From NCBI RefSeq assembly GCF_008729015.1, contig NZ_RKSM01000001.1, forward strand, positions 2,666,001-2,730,000: a stretch of DNA of 64,000 nucleotides. The letters are read 5' to 3'. Source of the DNA: Haloarcula sp. CBA1129 (lineage in GTDB: Archaea; Halobacteriota; Halobacteria; Halobacteriales; Haloarculaceae). Under the pieces are notes generated by a model, which had not been told where the DNA came from, made no database searches, and saw nothing but the letters and a program-made list of their open reading frames with translations. Every line of letters begins with the position of its first letter. Positions within the stretch are counted from its first letter, which is position 1. This document shows, piece by piece, positions 35,615-47,405 of this stretch. The position numbers and the translations under genes are program-made.

Positions 35615-35718
35615 ACGGAACGCTCTCAATGCAGTCGGATAGTTACGCACTGCTTAGAAATACAGAAAGCCCACTCCAGAGAGATCCCTCTCCTGAGTGG
35701 GCTATGATAGGTATGAAT

Positions 35719-35840
35719 GGTGGCGGCGAACCGCGTTTCCCAGAGGCTCGCGCACTCCAGTACTCCCCGGAACGCTGGTGGGCTTATCTTCCGTGTTCGG
35801 GATGGGTACGGGAGGCAACCCCACCGCTGTGGCCGCCTAA
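35719..35840 (-). rRNA. rrf: 5S ribosomal RNA
   Basis: The minus strand reads TTAGGCGGCCACAGCGGTGG at the 5' end and closes with GGTTCGCCGCCACC, pairing to form helix I. The internal loop ACCCATCCCGAACACGG is the universal 5S core. The length is about 122 nt. Confidence 0.95.
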
Positions 35841-35891
35841 CGTCGAGTCACGGAATCGAACCGTGAAAGTACCAGTCTCGATCAACGCTCC

Positions 35892-35933
35892 ACCGTGCGT
35901 TCGTGCGATCCAGTTTGCGCCTGGACTCGTTCA
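35892..35933 (-). other. 3' arm of 23S rRNA processing stem
   Basis: ACCGTGCGTTCGTGCG...GCCTGGACTCGTTCA pairs with 38919-38961 upstream of 23S. The conserved pairs flank an unpaired core, as expected for a bulge-helix-bulge precursor site. Confidence 0.75.
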
Positions 35934-35977
35934 GCGACGAGTTAAATCGTCGGTGAATGAGTCACAGTGCGTATGAA

Positions 35978-38899
<2,922 letters not shown>

Positions 38900-38918
38900 G
38901 TCGTTGTGACTCGTTCAA

Positions 38919-38961
38919 CTGAACGAGTCCAGTGGACGCCTGGATCGCACGTACACACGGT
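38919..38961 (-). other. 5' arm of 23S rRNA processing stem
   Basis: TGAACGAGTCCAG and CTGGATCGCACG match, in inverse, the segment at 35892-35933 with a central mismatch (TGGACGC against GCGCAAA). This would be cut by the tRNA-splicing endonuclease. Confidence 0.75.
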
Positions 38962-39105
38962 TTCATATTCGCCCCCAAGGTGGAGATGGTGGGCGAATCG
39001 ACCCTTCCCAAGCGCGGTTTCACCCGGCTTGGTGCATCTGTCGTCGTACCACACCCGAACGCCGTCCCGCACTTAAGGGGCACGGTTCGAGGCTGGCACG
39101 TCGTA

Positions 39106-39177
39106 TGGACCCACTGGGATTTGAACCCAGGGCCTCCGCCTTGCAAAGGCGGCGCTCTCCCGCTGAGCTATGGGCCC
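39106..39177 (-). tRNA. tRNA-Ala (anticodon UGC) in the 16S-23S spacer
   Basis: The acceptor GGGCCCA pairs with TGGGTCC, the anticodon stem-loop is CCGCC-TTTGCAA-GGCGG and the T arm is CTGGGTTCAAATCCCAG. The discriminator is A and CCA is not encoded. This is the standard spacer tRNA of archaeal rRNA operons. Confidence 0.96.
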
Positions 39178-39193
39178 GGCAGATCCGCACGGT

Positions 39194-39245
39194 TGTTAGC
39201 CCTGATAGTTCATAGGTGCCCGGACGACGGGTGTTCTCGAACACC
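39194..39245 (-). other. 3' arm of 16S rRNA processing stem
   Basis: This 52-nt segment is complementary to 40825-40876 over nearly its full length. Pairs TGTTAGCCCTGATAGTT/AACTATCAGGGCTAACA and GGTGTTCTCGAACACC-like ends enclose internal mismatches typical of bulge-helix-bulge cleavage. Confidence 0.85.
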
Positions 39246-39283
39246 GAAAGGTGGGTTGGGGCAAAGCCCCAATCCCGATCAGT

Positions 39284-40755
<1,472 letters not shown>

Positions 40756-43871: not shown

Positions 43872-45623
43872 TTATTTCAGCGCGTCCAGTCGGAACTCGA
43901 ACGCGGCGACTGGCAGTTCTAAGTCGTGCTCGACGAGCACCTTCGGGTGGAGTTCACCGATGACGCCGACTACCTCCCCGTCAAGGACGACGTCGGCGAC
44001 GCGGCCGCCGATGAACGACGGATGCGTGGTCGCGGGCGTTTTGAGGTCCTTGTCGAAGGCGTCGGCCAGCGCCTGCAGGCGAGCCTTGGCGTCCTCGTAG
44101 GAGGCGTCTGTGCGCGCGAGCGCGGCGGCAACGGTACGGTGTTCGGCGACACCGGTGTTCTCCGAGTCATCGAGACCCGCCGCCAGCCCAATCTCGGCGA
44201 GGTCCTGCGGGTAGCTCCGGTGGGTGTTGTTCTCAAGCACCATCATGATGGAGGGGAGCGCCCACGTCCGGAGGATGGTGTAGTCCTCGCTGTAGGGTTC
44301 CTGAATGGTGACCGGGTCGGATAGGCCGACGACGCCGTCGGCCTGCTCGTCGGTCCCCGGAACCGACAGCCCCATCCGCTCGAAGTTCTCGGCTTCGTTT
44401 ATCATGTGGAAGTTCAGCAGGTCTTCGAAGCCCAAGCCGACCAGAGCGTCCCGGGCGGCGTCCTCCAGTCTAGACCGCTCGTGGCGGCCGCCGACTGTCG
44501 AGACATCGGGGTAGGTCGGTTCGAGGCTGTTGAACCCGAGCGCCCGCCCGATGTCATCGATGATATCGAGCGGGTGGATGACGTCAACGCGGTAGGGTGG
44601 CACCTCGACGTCGTAGGCCACGCCATCGTCAGATTTCGTCTCGGTCGCATCGAGGCCCGCGCGCTCAGCGTAATCGATGACTTCGCGCTCGTCCAGCGAG
44701 ACACCAAGGATGGACTCGATGCGGTCGTGGGTGACCGTCTTCGTCCGCACGGCGAAATCCGGGCGCTCCAGGGTTTTGCCAGCGTATTCGCCGGGCGCGT
44801 CGTCGGCGTAGGACACGTCGACCTTCTCGACCTGACCGCCGCGGGCGGCAAGCGCGTAGCAGACGATGTTACACATGTGGTCGATGGTCCACTGGTCGGT
44901 CCCGGTCATCTCGATGAACAGGTCCCGTGAGTCGACGCTGACCTCGGTCCGGCGGCCGTTGATGACCGGCGGGAACGAGAACAGCCCGATGGCGTCGTAG
45001 ATGGCCGGCACGCGGTCGAAGTCGGCCACGAGGTCGCCGTATGTCTGGCCGGTCTCGTGAGAAGCCATGACCTCACTGGGGGTCATCTCCGCGTCGGCGT
45101 CCAGCGGGACGAACGTCGCCTCATCGGGGTCGGCGCTGGTGTAGGTGATGGACTTGCCCGTCTCGTCTGTGACCGAATCGCCTTTGAGCATGGTGAGGTC
45201 GTGGACGCCGATAGCGCCTTTCGCCCGCTTGCGCCCCATCGTCGCGTGGAGCTTCTCCTGTAGCTGGATGAGCGACTCCAGCGCGGCCTCGTCCATATCC
45301 AGCCCGCGGACGATAGCGCCGGTGACGTAGGGTCGCTCCTCGGGCTGGTCCTCGACCTCGATGGTCCAGTCAGCGCTATTCGTGTTGGGGATGTCTACCC
45401 CGCGGTCGTCGCCGTAATGATACCGCAGGGAGCGAGCAACACCCTCGACCGAGAGACGGTCCAGTCGGTCCGGTGCGAACTCTAGTTGGAACTCGTCGTC
45501 CTCGGTCCAGCCCTCGAATTCGAGGCCGAGATCGAACAGGTCAGACTTGAGTTCGTCGTCGTCTTTCTCGTCGTGACCGGTCAGATACCGCAGTTCGTCG
45601 GGGTCAACATCGACGACCGGCAT
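43872..45623 (-). CDS. pheT: PheT, phenylalanyl-tRNA synthetase beta subunit (archaeal type)
   Basis: The 583-residue archaeal/eukaryal-type beta subunit has the B1-like N-terminal domain (MPVVDVDPDELRYLTG), B3/B4 editing region with FSFPPVINGRRTEVSVDSRDLFIEMTGTD, B5 domain (YADDAPGEYAGKTLERPDF) and the catalytic-like domain (HPLDIIDDIGRALGFNSLEPTYP, WALPSIMMVLENNTHRSYPQDLAEIG). It forms the alpha2beta2 enzyme that charges tRNA-Phe. It overlaps pheS by 3 bases, so both are translated from one mRNA controlled by the upstream leader. Confidence 0.96.
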   Translation of the reverse strand: MPVVDVDPDELRYLTGHDEKDDDELKSDLFDLGLEFEGWTEDDEFQLEFAPDRLDRLSVEGVARSLRYHYGDDRGVDIPNTNSADWTIEVEDQPEERPYVTGAIVRGLDMDEAALESLIQLQEKLHATMGRKRAKGAIGVHDLTMLKGDSVTDETGKSITYTSADPDEATFVPLDADAEMTPSEVMASHETGQTYGDLVADFDRVPAIYDAIGLFSFPPVINGRRTEVSVDSRDLFIEMTGTDQWTIDHMCNIVCYALAARGGQVEKVDVSYADDAPGEYAGKTLERPDFAVRTKTVTHDRIESILGVSLDEREVIDYAERAGLDATETKSDDGVAYDVEVPPYRVDVIHPLDIIDDIGRALGFNSLEPTYPDVSTVGGRHERSRLEDAARDALVGLGFEDLLNFHMINEAENFERMGLSVPGTDEQADGVVGLSDPVTIQEPYSEDYTILRTWALPSIMMVLENNTHRSYPQDLAEIGLAAGLDDSENTGVAEHRTVAAALARTDASYEDAKARLQALADAFDKDLKTPATTHPSFIGGRVADVVLDGEVVGVIGELHPKVLVEHDLELPVAAFEFRLDALK

Positions 45624-47134
45624 CAGCGCATCACCTCCGTCTCCCGCAGCAGTTCAAGATCACACAGCGTCCCGTGTACGTCGCGGATGTCTTCGAAGCC
45701 GTACATGAGCATGAGTAGTCGTTCGAGCGAGAGACCCCACGCCATCACGTCGCAGTCGACGCCAAGCGGCGTGAGCACCTCGTCGCGGAAGATACCGGAG
45801 TTCCCGACTTCGACGACCTCACCGGTCTTGGGGTGGGTACCGAACAGTTCGAAGCTCGGCTCCGTGTAGGGGTTGTAGTGAGGCTTGAACTCCAGATCAG
45901 TGATGCCGAACTGTTCGTAGAACTCCGTGAACGTCCCCATCAGGTCCCGCACGGAGAGATCTTCGGCCATCACCCAGCCCTCGATCTGGAAGAACTCCAG
46001 CAGGTGTGTCGGGTCGAGCGTGTCGTTGCGGTACACCTTCTCGACGCTGAAGTAGCGTTCGGGCGGGTCGAGTTCGCCGACTTGGTGGCCGGAGAGATAC
46101 CGCATCGACAGCGATGTGGTGTGGCCACGCAAGTCCATCCCGCGAGCAATGTTCTCGGTCCACGGCGAGTGATACCCCTCGCCGTCGGGGCCGACACCCT
46201 CCTTGTGCGCCGAGCGGACCCGCTCGACGAGGTCCGGGGGGAGGTGACCGATCTCCTCTGGTTCCTCCAGCGCGAACTGGTCCCAGTGGGTTCGGGCCGG
46301 GTGGTCCTGTGGCATGAACAGGCAGTCGTTAATCCAGAACTGGGCGTCGGCGTGGGGGCCTTCCATCTCGGAGAAGCCCATCCCGACGAGCGTGTCCTTC
46401 ACGCGGTTGGCCGTCTGGCGGAGGATGTGTTCCTTGCCGTGGCTCACGTCCTCGGCGTCGGCCTCGACATTGTACTCAGTGAAGGCCACGTCCTCCCACT
46501 CGCCGCTGGTGAGCATCTCGGGCGTGAGCTGGTCGACGGTCTCGGCAGCTTCGACGCCCTCCATCAGCGCGGTGACGCCGTCGTCGGTGAGTTTGATCGA
46601 GCGAACAGTCTCCTCGCGGACGTTGAGGAGGCCACGCCGTTCCAGTTGGTCGAGCGCATCCGAGTCGGCATCGTCAACGCGTCCGTCGGCAACGGCCTCA
46701 AGCGCCAGCATCTCGGGATCGGACCCGGGGTCGGCGTCAGCGTTGGCCGTGATCTCGCCGCTGTCGATCTCGCCGTAGGCCTTGCGGGCGTAGTTCGAGA
46801 GCGCGATGTCGACCGCGCCGCCTTCGAGGCCCGAGGCCCCGATAGCCTGTCCCATCTGGACTGGGCCGTCGGCCGCGCCAGCGTCGATAGCTGCCTCGTA
46901 GAGGTCTTGTTCGGGCAAGCTCTCACGGACGTACTGGTCGCCTTCCTCGGTGAGTTCGTAGTGTTCGAGCGTCTCTTCTGTGACGGAGAGCAGTCCATCG
47001 GCTTCGAGTTCGAACGCCGCTCTGGTGACCGCTTCCGGCTTGAGATCGGCTTCTTCGGCCACGTCGTCGATACGCCTGTCTTCCTGTGCGTCGGCGGCCT
47101 GCAGGACAGCCACCTGTGCCTGTGGTCGTTTCAT
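45623..47134 (-). CDS. pheS: PheS, phenylalanyl-tRNA synthetase alpha subunit
   Basis: The 503 residues comprise N-terminal winged-helix domains (IDDVAEEADLKPEAVTRAAFELEADGLLSVTEE and two further similar blocks up to about 200) and the class II core. The core includes motif 2-like YRNDTLDPTHLLEFFQIEGWVMAEDL, a motif 1 region MGFSEMEGPHADAQFWINDCLFMPQDHPAR, and the motif 3 GLSLERLLMLMYGFEDIRD. It supplies the Phe-binding and adenylation site. The ATG at 47134 follows a 190-nt leader that encodes a Phe-rich peptide. It is co-transcribed with pheT. Confidence 0.96.
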   Translation of the reverse strand: MKRPQAQVAVLQAADAQEDRRIDDVAEEADLKPEAVTRAAFELEADGLLSVTEETLEHYELTEEGDQYVRESLPEQDLYEAAIDAGAADGPVQMGQAIGASGLEGGAVDIALSNYARKAYGEIDSGEITANADADPGSDPEMLALEAVADGRVDDADSDALDQLERRGLLNVREETVRSIKLTDDGVTALMEGVEAAETVDQLTPEMLTSGEWEDVAFTEYNVEADAEDVSHGKEHILRQTANRVKDTLVGMGFSEMEGPHADAQFWINDCLFMPQDHPARTHWDQFALEEPEEIGHLPPDLVERVRSAHKEGVGPDGEGYHSPWTENIARGMDLRGHTTSLSMRYLSGHQVGELDPPERYFSVEKVYRNDTLDPTHLLEFFQIEGWVMAEDLSVRDLMGTFTEFYEQFGITDLEFKPHYNPYTEPSFELFGTHPKTGEVVEVGNSGIFRDEVLTPLGVDCDVMAWGLSLERLLMLMYGFEDIRDVHGTLCDLELLRETEVMR

Positions 47135-47207
47135 ACGGGTGTCTCGGTCTTGTGGGATAACCGCGGGTCGCTCAGTTAACGGTTCTCACTTCCTGTTCGC
47201 GGTTTCG

Positions 47208-47235
47208 TCCGACCACGCCTCTCGGCGCCGTCGGA
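47208..47235 (-). terminator. Hairpin with GAGA loop in pheST leader (attenuator candidate)
   Basis: TCCGACGGCGCC-GAGA-GGCGTGGTCGGA forms a 6-bp outer and 5-bp inner stem separated by one G-G mismatch, closed by a GNRA-type loop. It begins 12 bases after the leader peptide stop. No clear U run follows, so a stalled-ribosome or structural switch is as likely as simple termination. Confidence 0.5.
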
Positions 47236-47247
47236 GTCCACACACGA

Positions 47248-47325
47248 TCAGGTGGCGAAAAAGAAGCCGAACCCCGGGCGGTCTGGTGGCTGGCGAGCGA
47301 CACCTGTGTGGGATTCGGATGCCAT
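47248..47325 (-). CDS. Phe-rich leader peptide upstream of pheST
   Basis: The ATG at 47325 starts a 25-codon frame ending at TGA (47250-47248). Its C-terminal part reads RPGFGFFFAT, with four Phe in five codons (TTC GGC TTC TTT TTC). The TATA-like CGTTTATATT lies about 26 bases before the ATG, so the transcript probably starts at or one base before it, leaderless. Bacterial pheST is controlled by a similar peptide (PheM) through attenuation. Here translation through the Phe codons would sense charged tRNA-Phe. Too short for ordinary gene finding, but position, composition and downstream hairpin agree. Confidence 0.7.
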   Translation of the reverse strand: MASESHTGVARQPPDRPGFGFFFAT

Positions 47326-47345
47326 GTCTGAGCGGTTGTGGCTGG

Positions 47346-47358
47346 CAAATATAAACGT
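47346..47358 (-). promoter_or_regulatory. TATA box of pheST leader
   Basis: CAACGTTTATATTTGCC on the minus strand is a strong haloarchaeal TATA element, centred 26-27 bases before the leader ATG at 47325. Confidence 0.7.
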
Positions 47359-47405
47359 TGTGCGTGTGCACGTCTCGGCACGAAGTACCTGTATCGGTCC
47401 GGAAC

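Follow-up and report, generated by a model that had tools for sequence, protein, structure and literature searches.

A phenylalanine-rich leader with covarying RNA stems upstream of haloarchaeal pheST, a candidate ribosome-mediated sensor of charged tRNA-Phe

What does a short, phenylalanine-rich open reading frame do immediately upstream of the genes for phenylalanyl-tRNA synthetase (PheRS) in a haloarchaeon? In Escherichia coli, the pheST operon is controlled by ribosome-mediated transcription attenuation through the leader peptide PheM, and the original prediction for the locus of Haloarcula sp. CBA1129, made from a single stretch of 64,000 nucleotides (the window), was that the Phe codons of an upstream ORF (uORF) sense charged tRNA-Phe and thereby shift RNA folding or termination. 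The elements on which it was built, namely a TATA box, an ATG opening 25 codons, the Phe run, a hairpin with a GAGA loop and the pheS ATG, are all present on the minus strand. The 6+5-bp hairpin exists as described, but it was drawn too small, the real structure (H1) having in addition a conserved internal loop and an outer stem that sets in at the uORF stop codon. The leader and the genes behind it comprise the following features.

47134-47360, minus strand: pheST leader region
47348..47360, minus strand: promoter P1, BRE/TATA-like CAACGTTTATATT, recognized from sequence about 30 nt 5' of the uORF ATG, with the TATA-like CGTTTATATT at 47357-47348
47248..47325, minus strand: uORF of 25 codons, MASESHTGVARQPPDRPGFGFFFAT followed by TGA, apparently leaderless; ATG at 47325, TGA at 47250-47248
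47310..47318, minus strand: segment 1, CCGAATCCC, uORF codons 3-6, 5' arm of stem 1:2 (complementarity, covariation)
47267..47275, minus strand: segment 2, GGGGTTCGG, 3' arm of stem 1:2, consisting of the third base of a Pro codon and the Gly-Phe-Gly codons
47257..47271, minus strand: control codons TTC GGC TTC TTT TTC (Phe-Gly-Phe-Phe-Phe)
47198..47246, minus strand: hairpin H1 (covariation, covariance model)
47246-47243 (CGTG) / 47201-47198 (CGCG), minus strand: H1 outer stem as found in the window clade
47240-47236 (TGGAC) / 47207-47203 (CGAAA), minus strand: H1 internal loop
47235-47230 / 47213-47208, minus strand: H1 inner stem, closed by the GAGA apical loop; this hairpin, 47235-47208, lies 12 nt past the uORF stop and 73 nt before the pheS ATG (47134)
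47172..47185, minus strand: GAACCGTTAACTGA, conserved, probable second core promoter P2 near pheS
45623..47134, minus strand: pheS, phenylalanyl-tRNA synthetase alpha subunit, 503 aa, the gene regulated in the proposed mechanism
43872..45623, minus strand: presumably pheT, phenylalanyl-tRNA synthetase beta subunit, 583 aa, overlapping the pheS stop; so named from family knowledge, by position and sequence

The uORF of the window ends in Gly-Phe-Gly-Phe-Phe-Phe, with 4 Phe codons (TTC, TTC, TTT, TTC) falling within 5 codons and a single Gly between them. Upstream of the pheS leader, trpS is encoded on the same strand. An rRNA operon occupies window positions 35718-40755, approximately 5 kb downstream of pheS, and its proximity is probably the reason why many draft genomes of Haloarcula have pheS at 5-7 kb from the end of a contig.

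Comparison of pheS orthologues from the genus (32 genomes), the family (146 genomes) and 80 named haloarchaeal loci yielded 177 distinct leaders. A Phe-rich leaderless uORF, defined by a T/A box at about −31 to −25, a length of 15-50 codons and at least 3 Phe within 7 codons, was detected in 129 of the 177. The same rule returned nothing from 50 trpS, trpB and trpD leaders, from the 177 antisense strands or from three shuffles, and the leaderless Phe-rich uORF upstream of pheS is more than a chance occurrence. Phe-rich frames occupy the same place in Haloferax (MVSEPKRGTRASEPTTDGFGFFFLTA), Natrinema (MAPESHETGVGDQLRRPRSGFGFFFAR) and Halorussus (MPSEPQTDGSVRQPRQQSAGFGFFFAS), among others. Alignment of the orthologous leaders thus bears out the Phe enrichment expected by the original prediction. 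The enrichment is concentrated at the end of the frame, with Phe making up 32% of the final 12 uORF codons versus 0.45% of the remainder. Furthermore, TTT accounts for 22.6% of the Phe codons in the leaders as opposed to 5.8% in the pheS coding sequence; such swaps between TTC and TTT, with TTT enriched, indicate that selection acts on the residue and may also favor slow decoding. Conservation of the GFGFFF tail is good, and its variants (GFGFVFAD, GFGFFCTA, GFGFFVAA and GFFFA) are still Phe-rich. In about one quarter of the examined leaders, no uORF was detected by the rule. In some of these, a variant uORF escapes the rule, examples being a non-ATG start (L024) and DPFFFA tails (L091, L131, L135 and L142); the others appear to be devoid of the uORF.

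When 132 leaders are aligned on the uORF ATG, T is found at −29 to −26 in 85-96% of them and AAC mostly at −34 to −32. This fixed spacing between promoter and ATG fits a transcript that starts at the ATG or within a few bases of it. The dRNA-seq study of Haloferax volcanii tabulates, in its Table 2, 16 uORFs located in 5'-UTRs of 150-250 nt, and entry 13 is a 26-aa uORF (pI 5.9, 2772 Da) before HVO_2948, that is, pheS (PMC4983044). The corresponding uORF of Haloferax prahovense has 26 aa, a pI of 5.94 and a mass of 2850 Da. The H. volcanii study describes a long 5'-UTR for pheS and lists no additional transcription start site (TSS) for this gene (PMC4983044). A start downstream of 47325 would have spoken against a translated leader; the TSS given for H. 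volcanii lies upstream of the uORF.

The leaders contain another promoter-like element. In 110 of the 132 leaders with the uORF and in 31 of the 45 without a detected uORF (background, 5/354), a sequence resembling GAACCGTTAACTGA ends about 33 nt short of pheS, and in the uORF-less genomes this element is the only evident promoter candidate. Judged by sequence, it is probably a second core promoter, P2. No TSS is placed at the P2 position of H. volcanii in the dRNA-seq study (PMC4983044). P2 could bypass the leader and may be a source of basal expression, in which case the leader would be one of two inputs into pheST. In Haloarcula, the upstream flank of P2 may also pair with the Phe codons. 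The possibility that GAACCGTTAACTGA marks a regulon was rejected, the genome containing a single exact copy.

The conserved beginning of the uORF can be understood at the RNA level. The Gly-Phe-Gly codons have their complement in codons 3-6 (CCGAAYCCC), with which they form stem 1:2, and the pairing is preserved more often than expected: of 95 distinct combinations, 86 retain the c5.1-G3 pair, against an expectation of 70.1, and 71 retain the pair between c6.1 and the previous codon, against 49.5. In several leaders, a change in codon 3 is accompanied by one in the second Gly codon, and the stem is retained in 17 leaders of the Haloarcula clade. The first Phe codon, which is paired, is TTC in 128 of 132 leaders, and the later ones are often TTT. 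This RNA pairing accounts for the conserved SES/SEP start of the peptide.

Downstream of the uORF, most leaders contain H1, composed of an outer stem, a YGGAN/NGAAA internal loop and a variable inner stem. Its position is nearly constant: in most leaders, H1 begins 0-4 nt past the uORF stop, the outer stem starting 2-7 nt from the first base of the stop codon, and the start of H1 lies about 11-16 nt from the first base of the last Phe codon. Among 44 diverse sequences, 87.6% of the H1 pair cells are standard pairs (61.7% in shuffles), the covariation score is 0.657 (0.214 in shuffles), and 12 of the 13 pairs change on both sides; sliding the partners against each other destroys the signal, while the shuffles themselves leave shared ancestry in. 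Because pairing had played a part in the choice of positions for this test, a second one was anchored on sequence motifs alone, and it gave 552 pairs versus at most 448 in 1,000 shuffles (53 nonredundant leaders, in which shared ancestry remains). The purine-rich YGGA/GAAA loop is invariant between the variable stems, partly by construction given that GGA and GAAA served as the anchors. According to thermodynamic studies, three sheared G-A pairs are possible where GGA faces AAG; a simple kink-turn reading of the loop was rejected, its strand lengths not fitting. Leaders of the window clade have a shorter outer stem at a shifted position, which relatives within the clade retain with changes.

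Covariance models delimit the distribution of the structure. The H1 model R1 scores 34.6 bits at the window leader, the sole convincing match in the genome; a second match (30.3 bits, L211) is antisense inside an ABC-transporter substrate-binding gene and was dismissed as chance. A model combining the Phe tail with H1 has strong matches (at least 54.8 bits) only inside the order, and the strong matches that were inspected, together with a weaker one of 37.7 bits in the order, all precede pheS; matches outside the order (22-26 bits) were treated as chance. Searches of nine leader loci and the window leader against Rfam gave no family at the gathering score, T-box included. An Rfam match to SNORD49 (22.5 bits against a threshold of 37) was set aside as fortuitous, and the remaining matches were unrelated and below threshold, with E values of up to 5. 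Between H1 and pheS, no T-run of 4 or longer occurs in any of 124 leaders, and the original remark that no clear U tract is seen is correct. A bacterial-type terminator is thus unsupported and the classical output is missing, which leaves transcription attenuation of the E. coli kind, by a terminator hairpin, without its key element.

A comparable leader precedes another synthetase gene. Table 2 of the H. volcanii study lists as entry 12 a 23-aa uORF (pI 5.4) before HVO_A0127, a Trp-tRNA ligase gene (PMC4983044). We collected loci of trpS2, a second TrpRS gene, from the named genomes and from the order (L217-L224 and L246-L275) and found a Trp-rich uORF with WRW upstream of 36 of the 38 genes, for instance, MESTSSANCWRWHASREVDSVSV in Haloferax (23 aa, pI 5.43), MATALEWRWRWQPSSRADSVVLAAGAA in Natrialba and MQSALDCHLWWRWWPHASRADSLAVVAAVA in Halogranum. 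The H. prahovense uORFs match entries 12 and 13 in length and pI. A search for hairpins recovered one of 8-15 bp in 36 of 36 trpS2 uORF leaders, flanking the Trp codons in nearly all of them; changes on one arm are compensated on the other, for instance, CCACTTCCC/GGGAAGTGG in place of CCGCTCTC/GAGAGCGG. The YGGA/GAAA loop was not seen in the trpS2 leader. No trpS2 was found in the window's genome at the threshold used, and no conserved cognate uORF in the trpB and trpD leaders of 13 genomes or in the leaders of archaeal-type leuS, hisS and ileS. The match between residue and enzyme in two unrelated leaders is the strongest argument for the sensing of charged tRNA. As a separate observation, a GCTCACTCGCTTTCT-like stretch is conserved between the uORF and trpS2.

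We consider it quite likely that the pheST leader is a cis-acting, ribosome-mediated, attenuator-like element by which pheST is adjusted to the amount of charged tRNA-Phe available. Of the original prediction, the sensing part is strongly supported by the comparison, namely by the conserved Phe codons, the leaderless spacing, the covarying H1 at a fixed distance from the stop, the published H. volcanii TSS (PMC4983044) and the trpS2 leaders; the terminator hairpin found no support. Slow translation of the leader peptide would probably report phenylalanine shortage, a type of control so far known only from bacteria. From the observed anatomy, conservation, covariation and cognate specificity of the leader, we infer translation of the uORF, ribosome stalling and the direction of the effect. 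Transcription would start at the uORF ATG or within a few bases of it, and a ribosome would translate the 25-codon leader, pausing at Gly-Phe-Gly-Phe-Phe-Phe if Phe-tRNA is scarce and otherwise proceeding to the stop codon. While the leader is untranslated, stem 1:2 would hold the first control codons. A ribosome that has reached the stop codon would mask the 5' strand of the H1 outer stem, and a ribosome stalled at the Phe codons would end slightly before that strand, so that the two positions could lead to different RNA folds, by which pheST expression would be set. With a bacterial-like footprint assumed, starvation would allow H1 to form, and an ample supply would disturb it. The two covarying stems are placed at fixed positions relative to the control codons and the stop; a folding model with assumed footprints gave no clean switch in the window's own leader, and the comparison across haloarchaea revealed no general alternative, mutually exclusive pairing. 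Candidates for the output are premature termination that depends on an archaeal factor (FttA/aCPSF1, for example), translation of pheS, and binding of PheRS or another protein to H1. Transcription and translation are reported to be coupled in haloarchaea (PMC8576121).

The most serious rival concerns this output step only and is accordingly compatible with Phe sensing. Under translational control, the full-length transcript would always be made, and the position of the uORF ribosome would alter pheS translation or mRNA stability. We regard this as possible, if somewhat improbable. Besides the lack of a U-run after H1, it draws on the long 5'-UTR of H. volcanii pheS, for which the dRNA-seq study reports no other TSS (PMC4983044), so that the pheS start must there be reached inside the leadered mRNA. 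Yet the distance from the uORF to pheS is uneven (85-202 nt), opposing simple termination-reinitiation, and the 3' strand of H1 is not clearly more complementary to the start region of pheS than expected by chance (4.54 versus 4.32 nt in shuffled sequences), for which reason sequestration of the pheS start by this strand was rejected. A further option at this step, which we judge unlikely, is that H1 is an operator through which PheRS or another protein exerts feedback, the uORF ribosome merely competing with binding. The invariance of the purine-rich loop exceeds what a terminator or spacer hairpin needs; nevertheless, the invariance owes something to the GGA and GAAA anchors, the loop was not seen in the trpS2 leader, and an operator alone would explain neither the conserved Phe codons nor the Trp-rich uORF of trpS2.

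Two other explanations were weighed. The peptide itself might act, be it by arrest upon recognition in the exit tunnel or in trans as a small protein, as the good conservation of the GFGFFF tail could suggest. The variant tails differ in sequence yet stay Phe-rich, the conservation of the N-terminus is accounted for by RNA pairing, and the trpS2 peptide obeys the cognate rule with no shared sequence, making this explanation very improbable in our estimation. Slightly less probable still is that the leader has little regulatory role, pheST being driven mainly by the P2-like element and the uORF being an unrelated small gene. This would agree with the presence of the GAACCGTTAACTGA-like element about 33 nt before pheS with or without the uORF, but it leaves the cognate Phe codons and the fixed spacing of H1 unexplained, and the H. 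volcanii dRNA-seq study reports no additional pheS TSS (PMC4983044).

Taken as a ribosome-mediated sensor, the haloarchaeal leader shares with the E. coli pheST attenuator a short Phe-rich leader ORF before the same operon and hairpins around and after the control codons, and differs from it in being archaeal, in its leaderless uORF, in the lack of a U-run terminator and in the conserved internal loop of H1. We know of no evident sequence relationship between the two leaders. One feature of trp/pheST-type attenuators, a short leader ORF with several cognate codons, is present before pheS and also before trpS2; the absence of the U-run terminator keeps the leader from being classed as a member of this type. 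Auxiliary TrpRS genes of Streptomyces are likewise preceded by a Trp-rich leader and controlled by ribosome-mediated attenuation; in haloarchaeal trpS2, unlike in this bacterial system, the Trp codons lie in a hairpin loop inside a leaderless uORF. T-box leaders are tRNA-sensing RNAs that control synthetase genes by tRNA charging, which is the point of likeness, whereas the sensor proposed here is a translated ORF. Because a leaderless start removes the Shine-Dalgarno step, the mechanism would have to be either the bacterial logic in an archaeal form or a product of convergence.

According to a 2021 paper, no mechanism of transcription attenuation or antitermination is known in archaea (PMC8448881), and we found no report of leader-peptide attenuation in archaea in the open-access literature. 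The uORF of H. volcanii pheS was already known; in the available part of the source, Table 2 gives the uORFs without cognate residues, RNA structure, conservation or regulation, and the meaning of this one is not discussed (PMC4983044). What appears to be new is its cognate logic, its RNA structure, its conservation and the existence of a Trp counterpart. On the best reading, the pheS and trpS2 leaders are the first candidates for ribosome-mediated sensing of charged tRNA in archaea. A wider proposal, for and against which we see the prospects as evenly balanced, is that haloarchaea have a class of leader-peptide attenuators for the sensing of amino acids, to which at least pheST and trpS2 belong. 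Its members would be based on leaderless uORFs, do without a bacterial-type terminator and act through an archaea-specific output, such as FttA-dependent premature termination set by the position at which the leader ribosome stops. If true, the domain would have its first leader-peptide attenuators, in the form of two independent cognate leader peptides conserved throughout an archaeal order, and these would offer a natural in vivo test of archaeal transcription-translation coupling and factor-dependent termination.

Several lineages depart from the common arrangement. No recognizable uORF or H1 precedes pheS in L077, L080, L092, L095, L097 and L099-L102, a set that includes Natronomonas species; their relatives L073 and L083 retain the leader, a pattern of apparent repeated loss. 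The four leaders with DPFFFA tails (L091, L131, L135 and L142) come from the Haloglomus group and are divergent, with a much longer H1, the apical part of which contains GGAGACGAAAC, a second GGA/GAAA-like motif. Finally, in L054 and L121 (Halobacteriales MAG SW_7_65_23), an inverted-repeat insertion of about 80 nt (TAGTGATTATTGTGACTG ... CAATAATCACTA) lies between the uORF stop and H1, and is lacking in the relative L059, providing a natural disruption of the spacing.
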